Source: Anaerolineaceae bacterium (GTDB lineage Bacteria > Chloroflexota > Anaerolineae > Aggregatilineales > Phototrophicaceae). From it: DNA of 64,000 nucleotides. A program made the position numbers and the translations under genes. The DNA is taken from positions 186,001-250,000 of the forward strand of contig PABP01000009.1 of the NCBI GenBank assembly GCA_002699585.1, in the 5' to 3' direction. How positions within the stretch are numbered: position 1 is the stretch's first letter; each line of letters begins with the position of its first letter. Shown here one piece after another: positions 33,004-36,572 of this stretch. The notes under the pieces were generated by a model, which was not told the DNA's origin, searched no databases, and saw only the letters and a list, made by a program, of their open reading frames with translations.

Positions 33004-33606
33004 ATGAGCCTGACCACCATCGACTTCACGCCCTGGTTCAATAAAGAGAAAAAACTCGATGAACTGGGCCTCAACCTGACCATCGATGACCTGCGCAAGG
33101 CATCTAATGAAAGCATTGACTACCTGCTCAGTCTGCTCGATGGCCTGACTGACGCCGATGTCGCCTTTGAACCGCATGATCCTGAGGCGCACGATGAGCA
33201 CGCTACCGAAGGTGAAGAACACATCGGCTGGACCATCGGCCATCTGATTGCTCATACCACAGCCAGCAGTGATGAAGGCGCGGCTATCAGCTCTTTACTG
33301 GCGCGCGGTGTGGAAGAAATCAAGCGCCCACGTTACGAAACACCCTGGCGCGACATGAACACGGTTGAAAGTTGTGTGCAGCGTTTAGAAGAGAGCCGTC
33401 GTATGCGCCTGGCCTATCTCGATACCTGGCCGGACATGCCGCACTTTGATAATTATCGTGGGGGCGTCTCTGAGCGTTTTATCGAGTACTTCGGCAATTT
33501 GAATGCCATAGGCGCATTCTTGATGGGCCTCAGCCACGAAGTCGGTCACTATGACCAGATCATTGATGCCAAGCAGCAGGCCCTCGCCGCTCGCGAACAG
33601 GCCTAG
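33004..33606 (+). CDS. DinB-like / DUF664-type four-helix protein
   Basis: A 200-residue protein with the four-helix DinB superfamily pattern. Helix 1 contains LTIDDLRKASNESIDYLLSL, helix 2 GWTIGHLIAHTTASSDEGAA, and helix 4 GLSHEVGHYDQIIDAKQQAL. His residues in the second and last helices are where the family binds a divalent metal. Such proteins include thiol-dependent S-transferases (bacillithiol, mycothiol); the thiol here is unknown. AAGAGG lies upstream of the ATG. Monocistronic; a REP element follows. Confidence 0.7.
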   Translation: MSLTTIDFTPWFNKEKKLDELGLNLTIDDLRKASNESIDYLLSLLDGLTDADVAFEPHDPEAHDEHATEGEEHIGWTIGHLIAHTTASSDEGAAISSLLARGVEEIKRPRYETPWRDMNTVESCVQRLEESRRMRLAYLDTWPDMPHFDNYRGGVSERFIEYFGNLNAIGAFLMGLSHEVGHYDQIIDAKQQALAAREQA

Positions 33607-33663: not shown

Positions 33664-34863
33664 TTAAGCAAACCGCTTCCGTTTGCGGCTGACCAACTGG
33701 CTCACCAACAGAATACCGCCGCCCATGACCATCAACGCAGCACAAATACTGAAGAAGATAATAGGCTCGGCATTGTCATATACGTAGCCCAGGGGGGCAC
33801 TTGCCAGTAGGGCTGCCAAACTGGGGATCGTGATTTGTATCAAGGCCTGGTTTGTAGACACATTGCGTGGATGGCTGACTTTGTTGACGTGGACCAGCAT
33901 CGAGAGATTCACCATCGCGAACATCGGTCCACGGAGTACCATGATTGCCATGACCCATAAGAGGCTTGTCGCCGAGCCAATCAGCACCCAGATAACTCCA
34001 AAGCCCAGCGCGCCCGCAATATAAAACCAGACAGCACTATGCTTACGCAATGGACCGTCTAGGATGTTGTACCAGGGGATTTCCATCAGAGAACTGACGA
34101 CAACAATTAAGGTGATTTGCTCGGTTGCAATGCCCAGATTTTCCTGAAAGTGCAGGAGCCAGAAGGCGAACCCTGTCCGCAGCCCCATCATCGCAAAGAA
34201 TTGTGCGACGAATACTGGGTAAAGCTGGCGGCGGCTGGTCGCCTGTGTATTATTTATATCGTCAGTGGGTTTATCTGATGTATTGATTGGCAATGCGTTG
34301 GAGAGGCCAATAACGGCCAATCCGCTGGCAATCGCTGCCAGGAACAATCCGGTAAATTGTGCAATGCTAAAGATCAGCCCGGAAATAAGATTACCAACCA
34401 CGAACCCACTCGCCGATATTGAACGAACACGTCCAAAATTGGATTTGCCGACCTGTTCCAGTTTGGTGAATGCCAATTGTATAACGAAGATAAATGTGCT
34501 GCGGAAGCAGACCTGGGCCACAATCATGCCCGCAAATAGAACTGCCGTGATCGGGAAAGCCAACATCAGGAAAATAGCCGAGATATACGCCAGCACAATG
34601 CCCCGATACATCGTCCGATGTCGGTTGGTGCGATCGGCAAGGTTACTTAGCATCGGGATGCCCACCAGTTCGACCAGCGCGGCGATGCTCAGCACAATGC
34701 CGATCAATGTACCCGAAAAATCTTGTGCATCCAGATATAGGTTGAAATATGGAGCGCTGAAGCCGCGCATCGTCCCGCTAAAGAAGATGACCAGCAGTAA
34801 TTGGGGATACATCTCGTTGATATGGGAGGCAATATCAGAACGCTTGAGTGCTTTGGGGAACAA
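33664..34863 (-). CDS. MFS transporter
   Basis: A 399-residue protein with twelve predicted membrane segments in two halves. The loop 2-3 motif reads PMLSNLADRTNRHRTM, a variant of the MFS signature. The polar centre is short (NTSDKPTDDINNTQATSRR). It ends with the basic SRKRKRFA. The start is uncertain: TTG at 34863 opens the frame, but ATG at 34812 just before the first helix is also possible; neither has a strong ribosome site. Relatives include nucleoside- or sugar-type permeases, but nothing here fixes the substrate. Confidence 0.85.
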   Translation of the reverse strand: MFPKALKRSDIASHINEMYPQLLLVIFFSGTMRGFSAPYFNLYLDAQDFSGTLIGIVLSIAALVELVGIPMLSNLADRTNRHRTMYRGIVLAYISAIFLMLAFPITAVLFAGMIVAQVCFRSTFIFVIQLAFTKLEQVGKSNFGRVRSISASGFVVGNLISGLIFSIAQFTGLFLAAIASGLAVIGLSNALPINTSDKPTDDINNTQATSRRQLYPVFVAQFFAMMGLRTGFAFWLLHFQENLGIATEQITLIVVVSSLMEIPWYNILDGPLRKHSAVWFYIAGALGFGVIWVLIGSATSLLWVMAIMVLRGPMFAMVNLSMLVHVNKVSHPRNVSTNQALIQITIPSLAALLASAPLGYVYDNAEPIIFFSICAALMVMGGGILLVSQLVSRKRKRFA

Positions 34864-34964: not shown

Positions 34965-34993
34965 TTGCTTTTTGACCCTGACTTTTTTATACT
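34965..34993 (+). promoter_or_regulatory. Candidate promoter of the hisS leader
   Basis: TTGCTT (34965-34970), a 17-bp spacer and TATACT (34988-34993) place a transcription start near 35000. The resulting leader is about 220 nt and contains the His-rich peptide, the antiterminator and the terminator. Confidence 0.6.
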
Positions 34994-35045
34994 CTTAACA
35001 ACGTCAATTGCGCCCCGGCGCACTCAAAACAAGGCGAGCAACCGC

Positions 35046-35093
35046 ATGATCAACCTGAACAACAGCCGCAGCCATCATGCACATCATGCATAA
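35046..35093 (+). CDS. Histidine leader peptide (hisS attenuator)
   Basis: A 15-residue frame, MINLNNSRSHHAHHA, followed by TAA. Four of the last six codons are CAT (35073-35078 and 35082-35087). AAGG stands 11 nt before the ATG. It is too short for ordinary gene calling. The stop codon touches the 5' strand of an antiterminator stem, and a terminator follows 30 bp later, ahead of hisS. A ribosome waiting for His-tRNA on these codons would leave 35092-35108 free. This arrangement matches the classic his, trp and pheST leader peptides in logic. Confidence 0.85.
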   Translation: MINLNNSRSHHAHHA

Positions 35094-35147
35094 GCGTTAA
35101 CTGACGTCACGGATTGAACTTCCAAAGCGCGACGTTGGTTCGCGCTT
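35092..35147 (+). promoter_or_regulatory. Antiterminator of the hisS attenuator
   Basis: Bases 35092-35108 (AAGCGTTAACTGACGTC) can pair with 35131-35147 (GACGTTGGTTCGCGCTT): 16 of 17 positions pair, three as G-U, with one T-C mismatch. This duplex uses the loop and the whole 3' arm of the downstream terminator, so the two structures exclude each other. The 5' strand begins inside the leader stop codon. A ribosome that finishes the peptide would cover it; one stalled on the first His codon would not. Confidence 0.8.
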
Positions 35148-35151
35148 TTTT
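35124..35151 (+). terminator. Attenuator terminator upstream of hisS
   Basis: A perfect 8-bp stem AAAGCGCG/CGCGCTTT with a 9-nt loop is followed by an uninterrupted T run (to 35151, then ATTTG). It lies 71 bp before the hisS start codon, within the same transcript, so it must be bypassed for hisS expression. Confidence 0.9.
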
Positions 35152-35222
35152 ATTTGTATCCACAGCGCGACAAACCGTATTCAATCGATTCAAAGCAAGC
35201 GACCTTTAAGGACAGGCACAGT

Positions 35223-36572
35223 ATGGCACAGACAAAAATCAAACCCCGGTTGGCCAAGGGCTTCCGCGACTTTTTACCCGCGGAAATGCTCAAGCGCCAG
35301 TATGTCATCGACACCGTTGAAGGTGTCTTCCAGCTATATGGCTACGAGCCGTTGCAAACGCCCGTATTGGAAATGCGCGATACGTTGTTTGGCAAATATG
35401 GTGAAGACGCCGAGCAGCTCATCTACAGCGCCCAACATGGCCGCAGCAAGAGTGACGAAGTCGCCATGCGTTACGACCTGACTGTGCCGCTGTCGCGTGT
35501 CGTCGCCCAGTATGAAAATGACATCACGTTCCCATTCCGCCGCTATCAGATCAGCCCGGTTTGGCGTGGGGAACGCCCCCAAAAGGGCCGCTACCGTGAG
35601 TTCTACCAGTGCGATGCCGATATTGTCGGCGTCAGTGGCATGGAAGCTGATGCTGAAGTCATCAGCGTCATGCACACTGTGTATCAGCGTCTGAACCTGC
35701 CGCAGCCCATCATCAAGATCAACAATCGCAAGCTGCTGACAGGTATGGGCATTTTCTCTGGTGTGCCCGATGGCCAACTGCCGGATCTCTACCGCAGCAT
35801 CGACAAGTTCGACAAAATCGGCGCGGATGGCGTGGAAAAAGAACTCGTCGAGCGTGGCATCCCTGCCGAAGCCGTCGCCCGAATGATGAACCTCATTCAA
35901 TCGCGGGAAGCAGGCGTCAAAAATCTGGACGTGCTCGATAACCAGATGGGCGATCTGGAAGCGGCCCAGGTAGGTATCGCCGAGCTGCGTTCGATGGCGA
36001 CTTATCTGGATGCTTTAGGCGTGCCGACTTCAGCCTATGAATTTGACTTTACGATGGTGCGCGGCCTGAGCTACTACACCGGCCCCATTTTCGAGACCAT
36101 CATCCAGGAGCCAAACCTGGGCAGCGTCACCGGTGGCGGTCGTTACGATGACCTCATTGGCCTGTTCCGCCGCGAGAGCCTGCCGACGGTGGGTATGTCG
36201 CTCGGCATTGAGCGCATCATCGACATTATGACCGAACTCGACTTGTTCCCCTCACACATTGGCGATACGGTCGTCGATCTGCTGGTGACGGTCTTCGACG
36301 ACGAAACGCAGATTGCATCGGCGCGGCTGGCCAGCCAACTGCGCAAGATGAACATCCGCACCGAGCTGTACATGAGCGACAGCAAATTCAAGCTGGGTAA
36401 GCAGTTCGCCTATGCTGATAAGAAGGGCATTCCGCTGGTTGCCACCCTGGGACCTGAAGAAGTCGCCCAGGGGCGCGTTAGTCTCAAGCGCCTCAGCGAT
36501 GGCGAAGAGGTCGATGTTTTGCAGGCCGATGCCGTCGATGCGGTCGTCAATCTGATGCAAACCGAGTTCTAA
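35223..36572 (+). CDS. hisS: Histidyl-tRNA synthetase
   Basis: A 449-residue class II aminoacyl-tRNA synthetase that charges tRNA-His. Motifs: motif 1 region GFRDFLPAEMLKRQYV, motif 2 RYDLTVPLSR and RYQISPVWRGERPQKGRYREF, HisRS-specific RGLSYYTGPIFE, motif 3 TGGGRYDDLIG...GMSLGIERI. A C-terminal anticodon-binding domain follows from about residue 345. The ATG at 35223 begins MAQTKIKPRLAKGFRDFLPA; a longer open frame from 35154 runs through the leader and is not used. Regulation by histidine-dependent attenuation is indicated by the leader. Confidence 0.98.
   Translation: MAQTKIKPRLAKGFRDFLPAEMLKRQYVIDTVEGVFQLYGYEPLQTPVLEMRDTLFGKYGEDAEQLIYSAQHGRSKSDEVAMRYDLTVPLSRVVAQYENDITFPFRRYQISPVWRGERPQKGRYREFYQCDADIVGVSGMEADAEVISVMHTVYQRLNLPQPIIKINNRKLLTGMGIFSGVPDGQLPDLYRSIDKFDKIGADGVEKELVERGIPAEAVARMMNLIQSREAGVKNLDVLDNQMGDLEAAQVGIAELRSMATYLDALGVPTSAYEFDFTMVRGLSYYTGPIFETIIQEPNLGSVTGGGRYDDLIGLFRRESLPTVGMSLGIERIIDIMTELDLFPSHIGDTVVDLLVTVFDDETQIASARLASQLRKMNIRTELYMSDSKFKLGKQFAYADKKGIPLVATLGPEEVAQGRVSLKRLSDGEEVDVLQADAVDAVVNLMQTEF

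Follow-up and report, generated by a model that had tools for sequence, protein, structure and literature searches.

A candidate ribosome-mediated histidine attenuator upstream of hisS in Anaerolineae of the phylum Chloroflexota

Introduction

In Escherichia coli, the pheST synthetase gene is attenuated through pheM, a leader peptide that carries the amino acid the synthetase loads. The enterobacterial his leader has a protector hairpin, and antitermination in the absence of a ribosome is not expected there.

Histidine leaders have also been predicted in Firmicutes; the papers cited here were consulted in part, and statements about them refer to those parts. In bacilli, a computational prediction with a terminator screen placed a His leader before hisS* (a hisS paralogue) and hisZ (Naville and Gautheret 2010, PMC2965389), in a text in which the word Chloroflexi is absent. 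His attenuators of his operons are predicted for the Bacillus cereus group, the Eubacteriales (mainly Peptostreptococcaceae), and the Erysipelotrichales, in a text that does not contain hisS (PMC9413887). The same source describes the T-box, which senses uncharged tRNA directly and without a ribosome. T-box, His, Trp, Thr, and Leu leader families are listed in PMC3766115, which has Chloroflexi among its lineages and states no His leader for them in the portion examined. In the portion covered, PMC4833913 mentions Chloroflexi solely as a group in which few genomes have been sequenced, and the title of PMC5794164 refers to a leucine-rich attenuator peptide in Staphylococcus aureus.

The locus studied here lies in a window of 64,000 nucleotides from an Anaerolineaceae bacterium (contig PABP01000009.1), whose genome of 6.7 Mb is spread over 42 contigs and is 96% complete. 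An earlier reading of this sequence (the original prediction) had proposed a complete histidine attenuator before hisS, and had known of no described hisS leader peptide in this phylum. For the Chloroflexota, we found no paper on leader-peptide attenuation (under the name Chloroflexi or Chloroflexota) in a literature search with partial coverage of subscription journals. As a hisS* leader had already been predicted in bacilli (PMC2965389, in part), hisS leaders themselves have a precedent among bacteria.

Results

Anatomy of the hisS leader

The window contains a divergent gene pair, an MFS transporter gene on the minus strand and hisS on the plus strand, with the leader elements between them on the plus strand (Table 1). 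The hisS product matches TIGR00442 with 387.5 bits (cut-off 286.75), and PF13393 also matches.

Table 1. Features of the hisS locus in the window, and related elements elsewhere
Feature	Position	Strand	Basis or remark
MFS transporter gene	33664-34863	minus	PF12832/PF07690
Promoter-like site: TTGCTT (34965-34970), 17-nt spacer, TATACT (34988-34993)	34965-34993	plus	8/12 consensus; TATACT recurrence in relatives
Possible ribosome binding site of leader frame, AAGGCGAG	35031-35038	plus	inferred from sequence reading
Leader peptide frame MINLNNSRSHHAHHA, ATG 35046, stop TAA 35091-35093	35046-35093	plus	sequence; HH frames in relatives
Antiterminator 5' arm, first bases inside leader stop codon	35092-35108	plus	16/17 pairing; re-pairing and register tests over relatives
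Intrinsic terminator hairpin, T-rich tail to about 35155	35124-35148	plus	terminator scan; fold z -3.13
Antiterminator 3' arm (terminator loop and 3' arm)	35131-35147	plus	pairing, folding, ribosome model
hisS, histidine--tRNA ligase, proposed regulated gene	35223-36572	plus	TIGR00442, PF13393
hisG leaders	L270 1152-1238; L275 1177-1266; L278 1206-1256; L282 1142-1216		e.g., MIVKTNRHHHHSVTRG, then stop
hisG leader	L274 1102-1212	reverse complement
T-box	G000:C35:459429-459676		before methyltransferase-valS pair
T-box	G000:C35:276606-276882		before trpE
T-box, below cut-off	G000:C23:111364-111641		before pheS

The three parts of the original prediction were all recovered. The leader frame has 15 codons, of which four are CAT (35073-35078 and 35082-35087), and its stop codon is separated by a gap of 30 nt from a terminator with 9 pairs, a loop of 7, and the tail TTTATTT. 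The 17-nt segment that begins in the stop codon pairs with the terminator loop and 3' arm at 16 of 17 positions, three of them as G-U. The region spanning both structures (35092-35151) folds with -25.8 kcal/mol (z -4.27), which none of 200 shuffles equalled, and the terminator (35120-35152) with -13.2 kcal/mol (z -3.13; 2/200 shuffles equally stable). The full 259-nt leader showed no unusual fold stability (z -0.73; 44/200 shuffles at least as stable). Counting both strands, four terminator-like sites were present in 1.2 kb, compared to 1.3 (sd 1.0) in shuffles.

A promoter scan requiring 9 of 12 consensus bases found none in the window, the site at 34965-34993 scoring 8. The best site within 130 nt before each leader frame was then compared over 46 loci (selected as described below). 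TATACT was part of the best site in 29 of these, the window included (shuffled mean 0.39, maximum 2), in 24 of the 29 with a 17-nt spacer, and TTGCAA stood at 17 nt in 16 of the 46 (shuffled 0.05, maximum 1). The site in the window is partly conserved with G001 and ends 52 nt before the frame, where 24 of the 29 end at 25-46 nt. The recurrence of TATACT before the frames suggests that transcription very probably starts upstream of the leader. A start downstream of 35151, which the original prediction had named as evidence against itself, is disfavoured by these promoter-like sites.

His-rich leader frames recur upstream of hisS

We searched for hisS in 61 relatives (59 matched), 133 genomes of the order (125 matched), and 121 genomes of the class (50 matched), sets that overlap. 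From the order and class, 150 upstream regions were analysed: 30 loci from the window's genome and its relatives, and 120 that were fetched in addition. Two genomes of the order set with matches lacking a gene start (G083, G090), second gene pieces in that set, genomes without a match, and the 22 lowest-scoring of the 50 class matches were left out. The first 18 named contigs listed with related hisS genes (L032-L049) are labelled Anaerolineae, Anaerolineaceae, Anaerolineales, or Chloroflexi. One locus, L106, is labelled as a Klebsiella pneumoniae MAG and encodes a HisS 43% identical to the query; this label looks doubtful.

A leader frame was defined as 5-45 codons containing HH and ending 8-75 nt before a terminator, which itself had to start within 230 nt of hisS. 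Such a terminator was found in 75 of the 150 regions; 47 of the 75 had an HH frame before it, and 28 an HHH frame. When each of the remaining 19 amino acids was counted in the same place, the highest number was 22 for doubles (Arg) and 6 for triples (Ser). When the sequence before the terminator was shuffled (200 rounds), HH frames averaged 2.15 (maximum 7) and HHH frames 0.045 (maximum 1), so that HH frames are about 20 times commoner here than in shuffles. One locus that satisfies the mechanical rule, L204, has a long, Arg-rich frame that looks like a product of chance. It is counted in the 47 and in the shuffle test, and was omitted (n = 46) from the pairing, ribosome-model, promoter, and family counts.

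Without L204, the mechanical rule gave a frame and terminator before hisS in 44 of 128 regions of the order, representing 25 of 49 genera, which bears out the conservation in close relatives by which the original prediction was to be judged. Additions by eye (L004, L014, L175, L176, L183, and L169, with the leader element further upstream of hisS in L183 and L169) raised this to 50 regions and 29 genera. The other 78 order regions had no recognisable element, among them 32 of the 33 from genus g17. Outside the order, 2 of 22 regions fit the rule (L210 and L230), both doubtful.

In many relatives, a DinB-like gene tail, identified by a sequence motif alone, closely precedes a hisS that has no leader; in genus g17 this tail is present in 29 of the 33 regions, at a distance of 9-254 nt from hisS. 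In the window, a DinB-like gene (PF12867) lies at 33004-33606.

The body of the peptide is not conserved while its His codons are kept: another genome of the same genus has MMIIEYGFGHHFSHL. In that genome, the stop codon with the next 17 nt, as well as 25 nt covering the terminator core and the T run, are identical to the window. Across the 46 loci, the first HH codon precedes the stop by 15-45 nt in 43 (median 27), and the terminator lies 19-48 nt past the stop codon (median 25.5). This spacing suits a ribosome that leaves the post-stop stretch free when on the His codons and covers it when at the stop. In two loci (L252 and L253), leader and terminator head a gene run leading to hisS, of which the first gene encodes a low-molecular-weight phosphatase; in L253, an alpha/beta hydrolase gene also lies between the leader element and hisS.

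Two of the loci added by eye carry His-rich leaders with no terminator by the rule (L004 and L014, the latter with an imperfect hairpin by eye), as could be the case if the leader worked mainly via translation or Rho-dependent termination and not via an intrinsic terminator. We consider this highly improbable, since the window and 46 relatives have a terminator whose stem counts 6 pairs or more and which has a T-rich tail and ends 10-172 nt before the hisS start, and the antiterminator uses the 3' arm of that terminator.

The post-stop stretch is matched to its own terminator

In the 46 loci, the post-stop stretch pairs with the 3' half of its own terminator at a mean of -11.7 kcal/mol, compared to -10.0 (sd 0.35) with exchanged partners, and none of 10,000 permutations, which ignore phylogeny, was as good. 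When a single locus was drawn from each of the 27 genera (200 draws), z had a median of -4.0 (range -4.9 to -3.1). A register test was carried out on the 29 loci with a placeable 20-nt hairpin core, in which bases 2-3 of the stop codon plus six bases were set against core positions 15 to 8; the window, with a longer pairing in another register, falls outside this set. At this fixed register, 170 of 232 cells pair, as opposed to 146.8 (sd 4.0) with exchanged partners (0/5000), and registers slid by 1-3 give 56-107 cells. Pairs change on both sides, for example from C-G to T-A, or from A-T to G-C or C-G. The covariation expected by the original prediction is thus present as a preference for the own partner with changes in both arms, by permutations that ignore phylogeny.

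Taken one by one, 7 of the 46 loci were in the best 5% against shuffled spacers of the same composition (35 above the median), and 8 were in the best 10% against exchanged partners (32 above the median). As few loci are individually significant, the pairing signal resides in the set rather than in each locus. The type of stop codon, tabulated against the facing terminator base in the 29 aligned loci (G-C 11, A-C 11, A-T 6, G-T 1; Fisher p 0.19), is suggestive at most of covariation.

These results also bear on the possibility that the hairpin merely ends the transcript of a neighbouring gene and that the frame is an unimportant small ORF. The 28 of 75 terminator-bearing regions without an HH frame would fit this, and in some of these the hairpin comes after a DinB-like gene tail, whose transcript it may simply end. 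In the window, however, the upstream MFS gene is divergent, and a plus-strand terminator therefore has only the hisS transcript to end. As the spacer and terminator arm coevolve in addition, and the frame is His-rich in the remaining 47 regions, we regard a mere neighbour's terminator as very improbable.

Predicted folding depends on ribosome position

The effect of a ribosome on the leader fold was modelled with a footprint that extends 13 nt beyond the A-site codon; footprints of 10-16 nt were also run. For the window, the terminator probability was 0.000, 0.000, 0.014, and 0.277 when the ribosome occupied the four CAT codons in turn, and 0.998 when it was at the stop. In the model, the geometry of stall site, stop codon, and stem start thus works as the original prediction held, the terminator going from 0.00 to 1.00. 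Over the 46 loci, the mean rise from stalled to stop was 0.44, compared to 0.04 (maximum 0.09, 20 rounds) with shuffled spacers. The change exceeded 0.5 in 21 loci, against 2.0 (maximum 4) with shuffled spacers, and in 12 of 27 genera; between 17 and 25 loci stayed above 0.5 when the footprint was varied over 10-16 nt.

As counter-evidence, 25 of the 46 loci change by 0.5 or less, and in 15 of the 27 genera no locus exceeds 0.5. In most of these low-change loci, the terminator wins at equilibrium even when the ribosome is stalled. A switch in such loci would therefore have to be kinetic or weak, and would need the antiterminator to form first. In L023 and L168, no terminator forms in the model even with the ribosome at the stop. 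Without a ribosome, the window favours the antiterminator (terminator probability 0.00), but for most of the set the terminator is favoured (mean 0.74; below 0.5 in 12 of 46).

Specificity within genomes

To cover whole genomes, the post-stop stretch and terminator of 38 sequences were built into a covariance model (R1). A search of 61 genomes with this model, with an E limit of 0.1, yielded 43 matches in 31 genomes. All 21 matches at E of 4.6e-4 or below lie directly upstream of a hisS match, and 2 of these (G023 and a second G002 contig) were absent from the training set. In the window's genome, R1 finds the hisS site only, under the stricter filters used over 40 genomes. The other 22 matches are weaker than E 0.001, and 4 of them were inspected. 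Two of these, in G038 and G056 (both E 0.009), are His leaders. Each precedes a gene for a low-molecular-weight phosphatase (PF01451) upstream of hisS, with an alpha/beta hydrolase gene (PF00561) after the phosphatase gene in G056. The matches in G008 and G013 are not His leaders on inspection.

The survey of hisG covered about 1.5 kb before the hisG match, so that the operon head is mostly outside it where a hisZ-like frame precedes. Among 23 hisG loci of relatives, 5 have a His-rich frame with a terminator-like hairpin recognised by eye (Table 1). In the window's genome, no His-rich frame was found by the rule in the 480 nt before the hisZ-hisG frames.

In nine loci (L049, L210, L211, L220-L223, L227, and L231), hisS is closely preceded on the same strand by a tRNA-His(GTG) gene, with a terminator-like hairpin in between (in L049, the tRNA is at 2369-2443). 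As far as they are numbered, these belong to class families other than those of the window's order, and L049 is a named Anaerolineales contig. Here, the tRNA gene and hisS may share a promoter, with hisS expressed by readthrough.

T-boxes are in use in the lineage, with matches in all 61 genomes searched and above the family cut-off in 60. The window's genome has three (Table 1). The pheS that follows the sub-threshold one has PF01409 and PF02912, and a piece of 200 residues reaches 101.1 bits against TIGR00468, below the whole-protein cut-off of 237.45. Control of hisS itself by a T-box or another tRNA- or metabolite-binding riboswitch, with the short frame due to chance, would agree with this usage but is extremely improbable, as no Rfam family (T-box RF00230 and His_leader RF00514 included) exceeds its cut-off in the hisS leader, as neither of these two appears at E up to 10 (where only STnc320, DapZ, MIR4387, and suhB match at chance level, E 1.6 to 8.5), as the T-box matches of this genome precede other genes, and as HH frames are so strongly enriched at the site.

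Proposed mechanism

Judging from sequence comparison and the folding model, we consider it highly probable (roughly 0.93) that hisS is controlled by a classical ribosome-mediated transcription attenuator, and hisS would very probably be turned on when charged His-tRNA runs short. RNA polymerase would start near 35000, and a ribosome would translate the 15-codon leader. When charged His-tRNA is ample, the ribosome would get to the stop codon at 35091-35093 and mask most of 35092-35108, upon which the terminator at 35124-35148 would form and hisS would go unread. When charged His-tRNA is short, the ribosome would stall on the CAT codons, leaving 35092-35108 free to pair with 35131-35147 once that has been made; no terminator would form, hisS would be transcribed, and the extra histidyl-tRNA synthetase would restore charging. 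We infer leader translation, stalling, termination or readthrough, and the physiological signal from the observed anatomy, its conservation and covariation, and the modelled dependence of the fold on ribosome position. The same three lines of evidence argue for the central claim of the original prediction, in which low His-tRNA leads to the antiterminator and lets hisS be read.

Discussion

Leader-peptide attenuation has been described in Proteobacteria, Actinobacteria, and Firmicutes, and would by these predictions extend to the Chloroflexota, where it appears side by side with T-boxes in one genome. This raises the question of why a ribosome would read the charging of His, while T-boxes read that of Val, of Trp, and probably also of Phe. 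In this group, hisS does not seem to be the sole target of ribosome-sensed His control, with hisG as an apparent second one. More tentatively, and with odds somewhat short of even, such control could be an old trait of this order of Anaerolineae, acting on hisS in at least 25 genera and on a hisG-first his operon in other members, beside T-boxes for other amino acids; the stop codon would be part of the antiterminator, so that the choice of TGA or TAA would be adjusted to suit the terminator arm. With some 50 natural variants, in which the pairing changes on both sides, there is a resource for dissecting a small attenuator.

Several known systems resemble the one proposed here. The likeness to pheM-pheST, which concerns Phe and Proteobacteria, is one of mechanism. 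The T-box (RF00230) also reads the charging state for synthetase genes, and does so in the same genome, but is absent at hisS. The his-operon attenuators of the three Firmicutes groups likewise combine 3-5 His codons with a terminator and antiterminator, but unlike the hisS leader they control a biosynthetic operon (PMC9413887, in part). Closer in its target is the leader of hisS* and hisZ in bacilli, also a His-rich peptide before a histidyl-tRNA synthetase gene and also predicted; it belongs to Firmicutes and to a hisS paralogue, and is set beside the Chloroflexota leader by description only (PMC2965389, in part).

With the enterobacterial his leader (RF00514) and the trp and his attenuators in general, the hisS leader has in common tandem control codons, a terminator, an exclusive antiterminator, and a predicted switch by the ribosome (PMC9413887, in part). 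It differs in that it does not match RF00514, that a synthetase gene would be controlled instead of biosynthesis, and that the antiterminator arm starts within the stop codon. Moreover, the predicted ribosome-free fold of the window is antiterminated, and its basal control would therefore differ from that of enterobacterial his.
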